DNA of 64,000 nt, from NCBI GenBank assembly GCA_018613055.1, contig JAGGQZ010000009.1, forward strand, positions 248,001-312,000. The letters are read 5' to 3'. The stretch comes from Chryseobacterium sp. ISL-80. GTDB lineage: Bacteria > Bacillota > Bacilli > Bacillales > Cytobacillaceae. Within the stretch, counting starts at the first letter, position 1; each line of letters starts with the position of its first letter. Of this stretch, positions 21,264 through 51,412 are shown one piece after another. The notes beneath the pieces were generated by a model that made no database searches, had not been told where the DNA came from, and worked only from the letters and a program-made list of their open reading frames with translations. The position numbers and the translations under genes were made by a program.

Positions 21264-22241
21264 ATGGGAATTTTCCTTACAATTGTCGTCGGAGCAGGGA
21301 TCCTAATGGCAATAGCGTTCTTCTCCACCGATAAAAGAAAAAAGAAAACTTTACTGAAAGAGAATATACCAGAGGATTTCGGTTTGCTAGAAGGGGTACC
21401 TGCAGAAAAACTTCTCCGTAAAATGGAAGCAGCACTGCCTTATGAGTATGTCAATCAAGTGAAAATCCGTTATTTAAGCGACCACCCGGAAATCACAGAA
21501 GATGAATTTGAGTGGCGGCTATTTGAATTAAAGAGGTATTTTATCCTCAATTCTGTTATGCATAACACACCGATGTTCAGCAGCAAAGTTGATGAGATCT
21601 GGCATGAAATGCTGATGTTCACGAAACAATATGAGTCATTCTCTGAGAAATATCTAGGCAAAATGCTACACCATACACCAAATCTTGAGCCTGAGCCAGC
21701 TCCACAGCAACGCGCTTTTTTTGACTGGGTGTTCTCCCAGTTATTCGAGATCACAGAGTACACCTGGCAGGCCTGGGGGGACTTTTTCCATTATCCATTG
21801 GATGCGGAAATGTTAAAAACCATAAATTCGCTAAGTGATGAACAACTGAAACAGCGATATTTCAAGGTAAATCCCGAAAATCAGGAGCTTGTCGATTATT
21901 TGGTCTCACAATTACGGACACAGATTGAAGAAGTCCATAAAATCTTCACATCCGATAAAAAAGGCAATTTTGAAAAGCCGGCTTTATATGGCGATATGTC
22001 AGGATTGAGTTTGATGATGGTTTTTTATTCTTATTTTTACTTTGAGGAATACTGGGACCATGCAGAGGAATATGCCTATATGAATCAATCACATGGAACT
22101 TCGGGTTGCAGTGCGGTATTTTGCGGATCAGGCGGTGTTCATGATTCACATGATAACGGAGGAGGAAACAACTGCTCAAGCAGCTGTTCCAGCAGTTGTT
22201 CCAGCAGTTGTTCCAGCTGCGGTGGAGGCTGCTCTTCCTGA
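21264..22241 (+). CDS. Membrane-tethered protein with WHE motif and Cys-Ser repeat tail
   Basis: A 325-residue protein. Residues 1-20 are a membrane helix followed by KRKKK, suggesting an N-terminal anchor with the bulk in the cytoplasm. The central VDEIWHEMLMFTKQYESF (around 110) recalls the DxxWHxHM...Y motif of glycine-rich-domain (DUF1399-like) proteins. The C-terminus has C in SGCSAVFCGSGG, then five Cys residues at C-S-S-S or C-S-S spacing and GGGCSS. The last part is encoded by 12-bp tandem repeats (about 22178-22215). Such Cys-rich tails can bind metal or form disulfides; nothing is proven. Ends in a strong terminator. Family not firmly recognised. Confidence 0.6.
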   Translation: MGIFLTIVVGAGILMAIAFFSTDKRKKKTLLKENIPEDFGLLEGVPAEKLLRKMEAALPYEYVNQVKIRYLSDHPEITEDEFEWRLFELKRYFILNSVMHNTPMFSSKVDEIWHEMLMFTKQYESFSEKYLGKMLHHTPNLEPEPAPQQRAFFDWVFSQLFEITEYTWQAWGDFFHYPLDAEMLKTINSLSDEQLKQRYFKVNPENQELVDYLVSQLRTQIEEVHKIFTSDKKGNFEKPALYGDMSGLSLMMVFYSYFYFEEYWDHAEEYAYMNQSHGTSGCSAVFCGSGGVHDSHDNGGGNNCSSSCSSSCSSSCSSCGGGCSS

Positions 22242-40155: not shown

Positions 40156-41049
40156 ATGGAGCAGAGAACGATTTTAACGACAAGCAAGCGGGGGCTGCAA
40201 GTGGATTCATTCCCGTTCCGCCTCTATCAAAAAGCGAAGAAGTTTGGAATCTGGAATCCTGCAGATATTGATTTTACCCAGGATCAAAAAGATTGGAAGC
40301 AGCTGAACACCGAACAGCAAAATGATATTCTACGGCTTATTTCGCAATTCCAGGCCGGTGAGGAAGCTGTCACACTCGACCTGCTGCCGCTGATCATGGC
40401 TATCGCCAAGGAAGGCAGGCTGGAGGAAGAGATGTTCCTAACAACCTTCCTGTTTGAAGAAGCCAAGCACACCGAGTTTTTCAGGCTTGTTCTGAACGCT
40501 TTGGGAGCAACAGACGACCTTTCAGGACACCATACTGAGACTTACAAAACGATATTTTATGAAATTTTGCCAACGACGATGGATCGCCTGCTGACTGACC
40601 AATCACCCGAAGCCATCGCCGAAGCAGCCACCGTCTATAACATGTTTGTTGAAGGAGTACTTGCCGAAACCGGCTATTATTCCTTCTATCAAAATCTCGA
40701 AACACTCGGCCTGATGCCAGGACTTCTTAAGGGAATCGGTAATTTGAAAAGGGACGAGTCAAGACATATCGGTTATGGAACCTTCCTGCTGCAAAGATTG
40801 ATCTGTGAGCACCCGCATCTGTACGAATATGTTGAAGGAAAAATGCAAGAGCTGACTCCGCTCGCGATCCGCTTGAACCAGGAGGGCTTCCGTGACAAGG
40901 ATGTGAGCACATTTGGAAACCAGATTGAAGATACAATGAACTTTACATTAAAACAGCTTTCAGTCCGGATGGAAATACTCTCGAGAGCAAGAGGGAAGCG
41001 GATCGAAGAGATTTATAGAGTATCTGAGACTGAAATGGGGGTTTTGTAA
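40156..41049 (+). CDS. R2-like ligand-binding oxidase (R2lox)
   Basis: A 297-residue ferritin-like di-metal protein of the ribonucleotide reductase R2 superfamily, without an R1 partner nearby. Expected ligands are E69, E102, H105, E166, E201 and H204. V72 and Y161 match the positions that form the Val-Tyr ether cross-link in the Geobacillus and Mycobacterium R2lox proteins with a Mn/Fe cofactor (remembered numbering 72/162). Characterised R2lox proteins hold a long-chain fatty acid at the metal site, and their physiological reaction is unknown. Placement in an acyl-CoA operon fits a C-H oxidation of an acyl substrate (inference). AAGGAGG before ATG. Confidence 0.85.
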   Translation: MEQRTILTTSKRGLQVDSFPFRLYQKAKKFGIWNPADIDFTQDQKDWKQLNTEQQNDILRLISQFQAGEEAVTLDLLPLIMAIAKEGRLEEEMFLTTFLFEEAKHTEFFRLVLNALGATDDLSGHHTETYKTIFYEILPTTMDRLLTDQSPEAIAEAATVYNMFVEGVLAETGYYSFYQNLETLGLMPGLLKGIGNLKRDESRHIGYGTFLLQRLICEHPHLYEYVEGKMQELTPLAIRLNQEGFRDKDVSTFGNQIEDTMNFTLKQLSVRMEILSRARGKRIEEIYRVSETEMGVL

Positions 41050-41166
41050 GGAAAACTTACTATGTTTTTTTAGGGATAAGCCATCAAATGACACAGTGGT
41101 GTCAGGTATTTCCGTAACTAATGAAACAAGCCATCTAAAAAACCTATAGGTGTCCTTAAAAACCGG

Positions 41167-41400
41167 TTACTGGTAAACCAAGTTTCCAATAATCCCTATT
41201 GGTGACGCGATAATCCAGTTACTGGTAAACAGAGGTTCCAATAAGCTCTATTGGTAACCCGATAATCCAGTTACTGGTAAACCGAGGTTCCAATAAGCCC
41301 AATTGATGACCCGATAATCCAATTACTGGTAAACCGAGGTTCCAATACGCCCTATTGGTGACGCTATAATCAAGATTATGTTAAATAAGGACTCCAATAG
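41167..41400. repeat. 52-bp tandem repeat array with paired inverted repeats
   Basis: TTACTGGTAAAC recurs at 41167, 41219, 41271 and 41323, an exact 52-bp period, with decayed units on both sides (through about 41400). Every unit carries two inverted repeats: CCAATA-N5-TATTGG (weakened in one copy) and CCAGT-T-ACTGG across the unit boundary (CCAAT in the last). No ORF spans it. It fills most of the 420-nt gap between the R2lox and aldehyde dehydrogenase genes; no terminator was seen there. Confidence 0.85.
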
Positions 41401-41469
41401 GATCTTCTTCAATGATTTAGTAACTAGTTTTTTAATAAATTTATATAAACCCAATAAGGAGGGCGCAAA

Positions 41470-42999
41470 ATGACTGTCAATGTCGATGTAAAAACATTTT
41501 CTTTATTCATTAATGGAAAGTGGGAGGCTGCGAGCAGCCAGGAAACATTTGATGTCTTTAATCCAGCTACCGGGGAATTAGTGGCACGAGTGGCAAAAGG
41601 AAATGCAACGGATGTGGACAGAGCAGTAGATGCGGCTAGGAAGGCTTTCGATGAAACCGACTGGAAGGATATGAAGCCGAAGGACAGATCGAAGGTGTTA
41701 TACGCTATTTCTTATCAAATTGCTGCACATGCTGAAGAACTTGCTTACCTCGAAGCCATCAGCTCGGGCGGTACCATAAGGAGGATTGGGGCAAACGACA
41801 TCCTGCAAATGGTTGATTTGTTCCAGACATTGGCCAAGTTTGTGGAAGAGTACCCATTTTCGGAAACGCTTCCAATTCCGCCGTTCCCTGGACCGGCTCA
41901 CAATTTTATCTGGCGCGAGCCAATAGGCGTTTGCGCAGCAATCACACCATGGAATCTACCGATGATGATTGCGACTTGGAAAATCGCACCAGCCTTGGCG
42001 ATGGGCAACACGATTGTGGTCAAGCCTGCGAGCTATACACCGTTATCGACGATGAAGCTAGCTGAAATCATTTCCCAGGTCGTGCCTCCAGGAGTCATAA
42101 ACGTCGTCACTGGACCAGGTGCCGAAGTTGGTGAAACGCTGGCAAGCCATCCAAAGGTCGATAAGGTTGCTTTTACAGGGTCGACTGAAGTCGGACGCAA
42201 GGTAATGCAGCTAACTGCAGGGACGGTTAAAAATACAACACTCGAGCTAGGCGGGAAATCTCCAAACATCATCCTCGAGGATGCCGACTTAAGCATCGCA
42301 CTGCCTGGAAGTTTATTTGGAGTGTTTTTGCATTCCGGGCAGCTTTGTGAATCAGGGACGAGGTTATTTGTGCCTGACCATTTACATGATGTGATTGTGG
42401 AAAACCTCGTAAAGCTGGCTGGCAAAATCAAGCTTGGCAATCCGCTTGATCCAGCTACTGATGTTGGTCCGATCATTTCACAGAAGCAAAAAGAAACCAT
42501 CTTATCCTATATCGAAGCGGGCAAAGCAGAAGGTGCAACACTCGTATGCGGCGGACACGAACGAAAGGTGGCCGGCTGCGAAAATGGCCACTTCATCGAA
42601 CCGACGATTTTCACGAATGTCACAAATGATATGAAAATCGCCCGTGAGGAAATCTTCGGACCGGTGCTGTCTGTTATTCGATACACCGATTTGGATGATG
42701 CAATCAGGATGGCGAATGATTCAATCTATGGGCTTGCTGCCGGAGTATGGACACAGGATGTCAATAAAGCATATGACGTCGCACGCAAGCTGCAGGCAGG
42801 AGTTGTCTGGATCAACGACTGGCATATGCTGCGCAATGATGCTCCGTTTGGCGGCTACAAACAAAGCGGAATCGGCCGCGAGATGGGTAAGCATTCACTT
42901 GATGCTTACACGCAGGTCAAGCATGTACACACTTCCATGGTACCAGAAGTTCATAAGCGTTCATGGTATGGCTTGCTGCTTTCCGACAGTGCTGAATAA
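41470..42999 (+). CDS. NAD(P)-dependent aldehyde dehydrogenase
   Basis: A 509-residue ALDH. TPWNLPMM with the Asn of the oxyanion hole, KPASYTP cofactor site, E259 (LELGGKSPN) and catalytic C293 (SGQLCESGT) are all present. Oxidises an aldehyde to the acid that an acyl-CoA synthetase can then activate. An iron alcohol dehydrogenase follows 29 nt later, together giving alcohol to aldehyde to acid. AAGGAGGGCG before ATG. Confidence 0.93.
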   Translation: MTVNVDVKTFSLFINGKWEAASSQETFDVFNPATGELVARVAKGNATDVDRAVDAARKAFDETDWKDMKPKDRSKVLYAISYQIAAHAEELAYLEAISSGGTIRRIGANDILQMVDLFQTLAKFVEEYPFSETLPIPPFPGPAHNFIWREPIGVCAAITPWNLPMMIATWKIAPALAMGNTIVVKPASYTPLSTMKLAEIISQVVPPGVINVVTGPGAEVGETLASHPKVDKVAFTGSTEVGRKVMQLTAGTVKNTTLELGGKSPNIILEDADLSIALPGSLFGVFLHSGQLCESGTRLFVPDHLHDVIVENLVKLAGKIKLGNPLDPATDVGPIISQKQKETILSYIEAGKAEGATLVCGGHERKVAGCENGHFIEPTIFTNVTNDMKIAREEIFGPVLSVIRYTDLDDAIRMANDSIYGLAAGVWTQDVNKAYDVARKLQAGVVWINDWHMLRNDAPFGGYKQSGIGREMGKHSLDAYTQVKHVHTSMVPEVHKRSWYGLLLSDSAE

Positions 43000-51301: not shown

Positions 51302-51412
51302 TAGGAATATAAATCGATTTTAAGGAAAATAAGTTCATTTTTAAGGAATAAAAAGAAAAAGTCAGGAATAAATGATCAATTTTAAGGAATAAAATCAAAA
51401 ATTCAGGAATAT
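51302..51412. repeat. AGGAAT repeats phased at ~20.5 bp
   Basis: AGGAA(T/A) starts at 51303, 51323, 51344, 51364, 51385 and 51405: spacings 20, 21, 20, 21, 20. The linkers are A/T-rich and alternate between a TTTTA- and a TC-type lead, so the full unit is about 41 bp. Two helical turns separate each copy. No ORF. Confidence 0.75.

Follow-up and report, generated by a model that had tools for sequence, protein, structure and literature searches.

A 52-bp tandem array behind an R2-like oxidase gene belongs to a class of intergenic Bacillaceae satellites with a whole-turn period and dyad-symmetric units

The window analyzed here is a stretch of 64,000 nucleotides from Chryseobacterium sp. ISL-80, placed by GTDB in the Cytobacillaceae (assembly GCA_018613055.1, contig JAGGQZ010000009.1, positions 248,001 to 312,000). 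Within it, two + strand genes, encoding an R2-like ligand-binding oxidase (R2lox) and an aldehyde dehydrogenase (ALDH; betaine-aldehyde-dehydrogenase-like, with a score under the TIGR01804 equivalog cut-off), are separated by a gap of 420 bp, inside which lies the tandem array considered in this report (Table 1). The array has a period of 52, 4.0 copies, 88% matches, and zero indels (TRF), and decayed half-units are found on both sides of it. It is non-coding: zero ORFs cross it, and the length of its unit is not a multiple of three. A scan of the R2lox-ALDH gap for promoter-like or terminator-like signals found neither.

Table 1. Positions of the array, its palindromes, and its neighbors in the window, and of the 21-nt arrays at the corresponding site in relatives
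Feature	Location	Strand	Basis or remark
R2-like ligand-binding oxidase gene (R2lox), upstream	40156-41049	+	NCBIfam NF006202, E 6e-101, above cut-off
Decayed left flank unit	41114-41165	.	31/52 positions equal consensus
52-bp tandem array, four units	41166-41371 (unit starts 41166, 41218, 41270, 41322)	.	TRF and unit-by-unit differences
Main palindrome CCAAT-n7-ATTGG, unit 1	41186-41202	.	Sequence and unit comparison
Main palindrome, other units	41238-41254, 41290-41306 (broken: AATTGA), 41342-41358	.	
Second palindrome CCAGTTACTGG	41215-41225; also 41267-41277	.	Sequence
Second palindrome, variant CCAATTACTGG	41319-41329	.	
Decayed right flank unit	41374-41425	.	21/52 positions equal consensus; CCAATA retained at 41394
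Aldehyde dehydrogenase gene (ALDH), downstream	41470-42999	+	TIGR01804, E 2e-168
21-nt arrays behind R2lox	Loci L207-L212 and L215		Seven relatives

Each unit is composed of CCAATA-n5-TATTGG plus CCAG-TTA-CTGG, with centers exactly 26 bp apart. An initial annotation had recognized both the array and its two nested palindromes (CCAATA/TATTGG and CCAGT/ACTGG), and its unit starts (41167, 41219, 41271, and 41323) are right, the offset of one base from ours being a choice of rotation. Its statement that the array is not a CRISPR also holds, given that the units run head-to-tail, the variable part is homogeneous within an array, and there are no unique spacers. Its further claim, that point changes between units largely keep the stems complementary, is wrong for this array. 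The four units depart from consensus at 14 places, three of them in stems (TATTGG to AATTGA in unit 3 and CCAGT to CCAAT in unit 4), and all three break a pair; none is compensated. Within arrays more generally the claim is not supported, as a stem pair that is hit by a change is more often lost than retained (75 broken versus 39 kept in the arrays of contig C1, and 365 versus 202 in CCAAT arrays).

Other tandem repeats occur in the window. One at 51303-51411, between two + strand genes, is A/T-rich with a period of 20-21 (41) and an A/T peak near 10.2 bp, and appears to belong with the 20-21-nt satellites discussed below. Two short ones, at 824-863 (period 15) and 22179-22217 (period 12), have periods that are multiples of three and are probably inside coding sequence.

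The array is more than a chance occurrence: two relatives (G020 and G011) share its unit at the orthologous gap, and its own genome is rich in arrays with this period. An unbiased survey of 800 kb from that genome (contigs C1 and C30) gave 24 non-coding arrays of period 51-53, which extrapolates to ~140 per genome, and hardly any non-coding tandem repeats besides. The CCAAT type accounts for only 3 of the 24, and several unrelated cores are represented. The genome-wide search for the unit that the initial annotation had proposed returned further arrays with the architecture of the window array on at least six contigs of its own genome. Of 21 genomes of the genus that were searched, its own included, 11 had sequence matches to the unit. 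The other cores of 52-nt arrays include CTGTCCGAA/TTCGGACAG, CTGTCAA/TTGACAG, and TGTCCGTCAT/ATGACGGACA, while TGTCCTTCAT/ATGAAGGACA is seen in other genera. When 85,000 species were scanned for pairs of neighboring CCAATn7ATTGG units at a spacing of 51-53 bp, at least 115 stretches matched; among the matches listed, nearly all are from Neobacillus, Mesobacillus, Cytobacillus, and unclassified Bacillus. Matches in Legionellaceae and Actinomycetota were set aside as single coincidences without tandem arrays, and the sole match in viral contigs is a coding, collagen-like repeat. In N. mesonae, an unbiased 400 kb held one array, too few for use as a replicate. Of 33 CCAAT arrays in the window's own genus, 19 have a second palindrome displaced by precisely half a period (0.8 expected), a feature that is rare outside the genus (3 of 74). 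Draft contigs of G012 and G005 end within 52-nt arrays (L055, L056, L060, and L077), which makes it probable that assemblies from short reads drop or truncate many such arrays.

With respect to context, which rests on gene calls from a simple in-house script, arrays in the unbiased set are enriched in gaps between convergent genes (8/23 versus 91/727 gaps; odds ratio, 3.7; p=0.006) and avoid promoters and genes. Since the window array shows each testable defining feature of the 52-nt satellites, it is a member of this intergenic satellite class of Bacillaceae.

What do arrays of unrelated sequence have in common? One answer is symmetry. In 16 of 20 unbiased own-genome arrays, the best hairpin of the unit exceeds that of all 30 shuffles, and divergence within arrays is lower in the arms than in the rest of the unit (0.052 versus 0.116; arms lower in 15 of 18 unbiased arrays). 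Stem covariance, a check suggested by the initial annotation, is seen between 75 nonredundant CCAAT arrays: at the lower-stem pair -5:+21, the combinations GC (38), TA (14), GT (6), and TG (6) give 88% paired versus 50% expected (p=2e-4). The pairs -4:+20, -6:+22, -7:+23, and -8:+24 are supported more weakly. Between this lower stem and the CCAAT/ATTGG part lie two positions prone to mismatch; the constancy of the CCAAT/ATTGG part itself is not assessable because it served as the search pattern. Units of unrelated sequence thus have one common dyad-symmetric architecture, conserved across the family, and to that extent the idea of selection for structure is partly supported; the strand-specific signature of RNA selection is absent, as described below.

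A second answer is helical phasing. The distribution of A/T along the unit was subjected to Fourier analysis, in which the 5th harmonic corresponds to 10.4 bp and is expressed as fold over shuffles. This harmonic is raised 3.25-fold in 61 nonredundant CCAAT arrays, 2.53-fold in arrays with other cores, and 2.57-fold in 17 published consensi from other species (PMC8161180; p=5e-4 for each), versus 1.03-fold in a coding control and 1.07-fold in 952 intergenic segments of the same contig (duplicate arrays excluded). TTCAT arrays give 3.35-fold. Within the window's own genome, the values are 2.17-fold for the non-CCAAT arrays of C1, 3.01-fold for the independent contig C30 (p=0.002), and 2.75-fold for all unbiased arrays of the 800 kb pooled (p=5e-4). 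Shuffles that keep the palindromes leave the phasing in place, at 3.18-fold and 2.76-fold (p=0.001). In both the CCAAT and the other-core sets, the A/T maxima lie ~5, 16, and 26 bp away from the dyad, and those of G/C at 0, ~10-12, and ~21 bp; the signal is one of A/T versus G/C, as counts of A-tracts (AAA/TTT) do not single out the 5th harmonic. The shorter 21-nt arrays are phased as well, with a 2nd harmonic (10.5 bp) of 2.14-fold (p=0.001). Taken together, phasing at 10.4 and 10.5 bp means that helically phased DNA completes five whole turns in 52 nt and two in 21 nt. Class-wide, the period is fixed at 51-53 bp, or five turns of B-DNA, and the unit is dyad-symmetric. The window array taken by itself gives 1.49-fold (p=0.22), and the best hairpin of its unit scores close to chance (z 0.9); because its own phasing is not significant and its stem changes break pairs, it is a weak example of the class. 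Its counterparts at the orthologous gap reach 3.07-fold (G020, p=0.04), 2.86-fold (G011, p=0.05), and 4.88-fold (G017, p=0.007).

That orthologous gap is informative in its own right. Homologues of R2lox are present in 14 genus genomes, and the gap behind the gene holds the window's array type in three of them (G000, 4.0 copies; G020, 11.4; G011, 4.4), an 11-copy 52-nt array with a different unit in G017, and a 21-nt array (GGTCGAATAAATnnnAAATGT-like) in seven relatives (G005, G001, G016, G007, G006, G019, and G013). Three others (G014, G009, and G003) are without an array there, the empty gaps being ~30-40 bp in the two complete cases, and the array is thus dispensable at this site. At two other orthologous gaps, species differ in the core of their 52-nt array. 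Behind a gene similar to aminoglycoside/capreomycin phosphotransferases, three kinds of 52-nt array are seen across species (L264-L266 and L273). Sequence is otherwise free, then, both between arrays and between species at one site, and the 21-nt companion satellites, of two turns and equal phasing, are able to occupy the identical site. As a raw tally over a small number of sites (four), the exchange of satellites is suggestive and not proven. These observations suggest that, as judged from sequence, the constant feature would be the geometry of the double helix and not any particular sequence. The best explanation in our view, to which we give an even chance, is that the arrays are DNA-level architectural elements that bend or wrap the chromosome in the manner of BIMEs, with a putative binding protein. 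Against it stand the weak phasing and near-chance hairpin of the window array itself and the relatives that have no array at this gap.

The alternative that survives best, though we consider it unlikely, is that the element acts in RNA, with the array co-transcribed in an R2lox-ALDH operon and its hairpins serving in 3'-end protection, in processing between cistrons, or as a sponge or small RNA. The short empty gaps are operon-like, published RNA-seq, as reported by Subirana and Messeguer, shows transcription of 52-nt repeats in B. coagulans (PMC8625621), and the covariation of the lower stem fits hairpins as well as dyads, which counts against a reading from DNA geometry. The purine-rich side of the core also lies on the strand of codirectional genes in 49 of 61 cases (49 versus 12 for all arrays; 12 versus 3 for nonredundant, clearly oriented ones). 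This apparent link to transcription is weakened, however, because the preference recurs between genes that converge or diverge, following GC skew there (38 versus 6); it thus goes with the leading strand or with purine skew in general. Moreover, sense-strand stems have no excess of G-U over A-C (88 versus 80, p=0.59), and a functional RNA hairpin is accordingly not supported. The 10.4-bp phasing of A/T has no rationale at the RNA level, 21-nt arrays lacking the hairpin occupy the identical site, and an Rfam search with five arrays and with the window gave zero matches to known covariance models. On balance, this evidence points to DNA geometry over an RNA hairpin.

Slightly less probable is a satellite without function, generated by slippage or recombination in intergenic space that tolerates it. 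Copy number is free, as the 4.0, 4.4, and 11.4 copies at a single gap illustrate, three relatives do without an array there, and arrays avoid promoters and genes. But slippage leaves unexplained a period of 51-53 bp over unrelated sequences, as well as conserved dyad arms and an A/T phasing that shuffled units lack; a mutational bias toward whole-turn lengths could give the period but not the phasing.

The preference for one strand raises a further possibility, which we regard as very unlikely, of an oriented replication or segregation signal, KOPS- or Chi-like, that is read with the direction of replication. With the leading strand judged by local GC skew, the oriented core lies on it in 43 of 50 codirectional and 38 of 44 convergent or divergent cases, and for clearly oriented CCAAT arrays (L001, L009-L015, and L044-L201), whatever the gene direction, the leading strand carries the purine-rich side of the unit in ~86%. 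Yet cores differ within one genome, leaving no common word to be read, and the bias may be in part a mutational purine skew (62% purine in the variable part of the unit versus 52% in other intergenic DNA). Pure double-stranded geometry does not predict that the loop and purine bias follow the leading strand, and this too stands against an architectural reading. There is very little room for a mobile palindromic element of the REP/RAYT or MITE type, since the arrays, although dispersed, intergenic, palindromic, and placed like REPs between unidirectional and convergent genes (PMC3733652), have units unrelated between arrays of one genome beyond the dyad pattern, differ in core at one site, and have zero matches in the phage and plasmid records searched. 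A type III toxin-antitoxin RNA (ToxI-like) was rejected, the neighbors being R2lox and an aldehyde dehydrogenase with no toxin gene.

Returning to an architectural element, how might it work? We infer that the arrays act as double-stranded DNA, in which a whole-turn period would align all dyads along a single helix face and let small bends sum into a segment that is bent or readily wrapped. Such a segment could be occupied by gyrase, HU, another nucleoid protein, or the tip of a plectoneme. Placement at the 3' ends of genes, especially between convergent genes, is where supercoils from transcription would be expected to accumulate, and would suit a topological or nucleoid element that may in turn affect the neighboring genes. 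Slippage or unequal recombination would expand, shrink, and homogenize the arrays, with selection retaining geometry and not letters. In its broadest form, which we put forward tentatively as possible but short of probable, the 52-nt and 21-nt satellites of Bacillaceae would be one functional class of sequence-free, whole-turn, phased, dyad-symmetric arrays that can replace one another at a site and serve, at the 3' ends of genes, as platforms on which gyrase or some nucleoid protein wraps DNA. The puzzle has been that thousands of bacterial satellites are exactly 52 (or 20-21) nt long while their sequence is free; phasing and the dyad offer a simple answer, namely, five or two whole turns with bends in phase. 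Such a rule would bring both satellite classes together and predict which changes of spacing or sequence matter, and, if it is true, chromosome-shaping DNA, and not junk or RNA genes, would make up ~1% of such genomes.

Tandem repeats of 52 nt in Bacillus were reportedly described earlier, by Subirana and Messeguer in 2020 (J Bacteriol 202:e00229-20) and 2021. In their account, 51-53-nt and 20-21-nt repeats are constant in size and variable in sequence, the carriers of the 52-nt class include B. subterraneus, B. selenatarsenatis, and B. mesonae, and the functional guesses are a nucleoid protein or a small RNA (PMC8161180). The arrays studied here resemble those satellites in period (51-53), in being non-coding, in their typical 4-10 copies and many arrays per genome, and in having a species-typical short signal together with its reverse in one unit, here CCAAT/ATTGG; the published carriers are close to, or overlap with, the loci found here. 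That account offers neither sequence conservation nor an explanation of the size, and reads 21 nt as two helical turns (PMC8161180); new here are the common dyad, the covariation, the 10.4-bp phasing, the 21-nt exchange at one site, and the convergent enrichment. The 20-21-nt repeats, found at the R2lox-ALDH gap in the seven relatives, are likewise non-coding, constant in size, and of whole turns, but they differ from the 52-nt arrays in having two turns, not five, and no long palindrome.

The enterobacterial BIME/REP clusters, which are thought to be topological or nucleoid elements, offer a second comparison. Like the arrays, they are intergenic clusters of palindromes 3' of genes, and REP elements favor unidirectional and convergent gaps (PMC3733652). 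They differ in having one sequence genome-wide and no 52-bp head-to-tail arrangement, whereas the units of the window's class are tandem and specific to each array; one palindrome family (with a GTAG/CGTC tag) occurring as single units or dimers is a BIME/REP feature absent here. Gyrase binding is a feature of E. coli BIMEs and a putative one of the 52-nt arrays. The gyrase motif of E. coli is a symmetric, 130-bp motif with G/C periodic at 10.75 bp, gyrase prefers BIMEs, and 35-52 bp are wrapped per GyrA C-terminal domain (Sutormin et al., PMC6379681). The 52-nt arrays are similarly dyad-symmetric, with G/C periodic with the helix, and differ in their 10.4-bp period. This motif and the preference for BIMEs are the nearest measured precedent for the mechanism proposed here.
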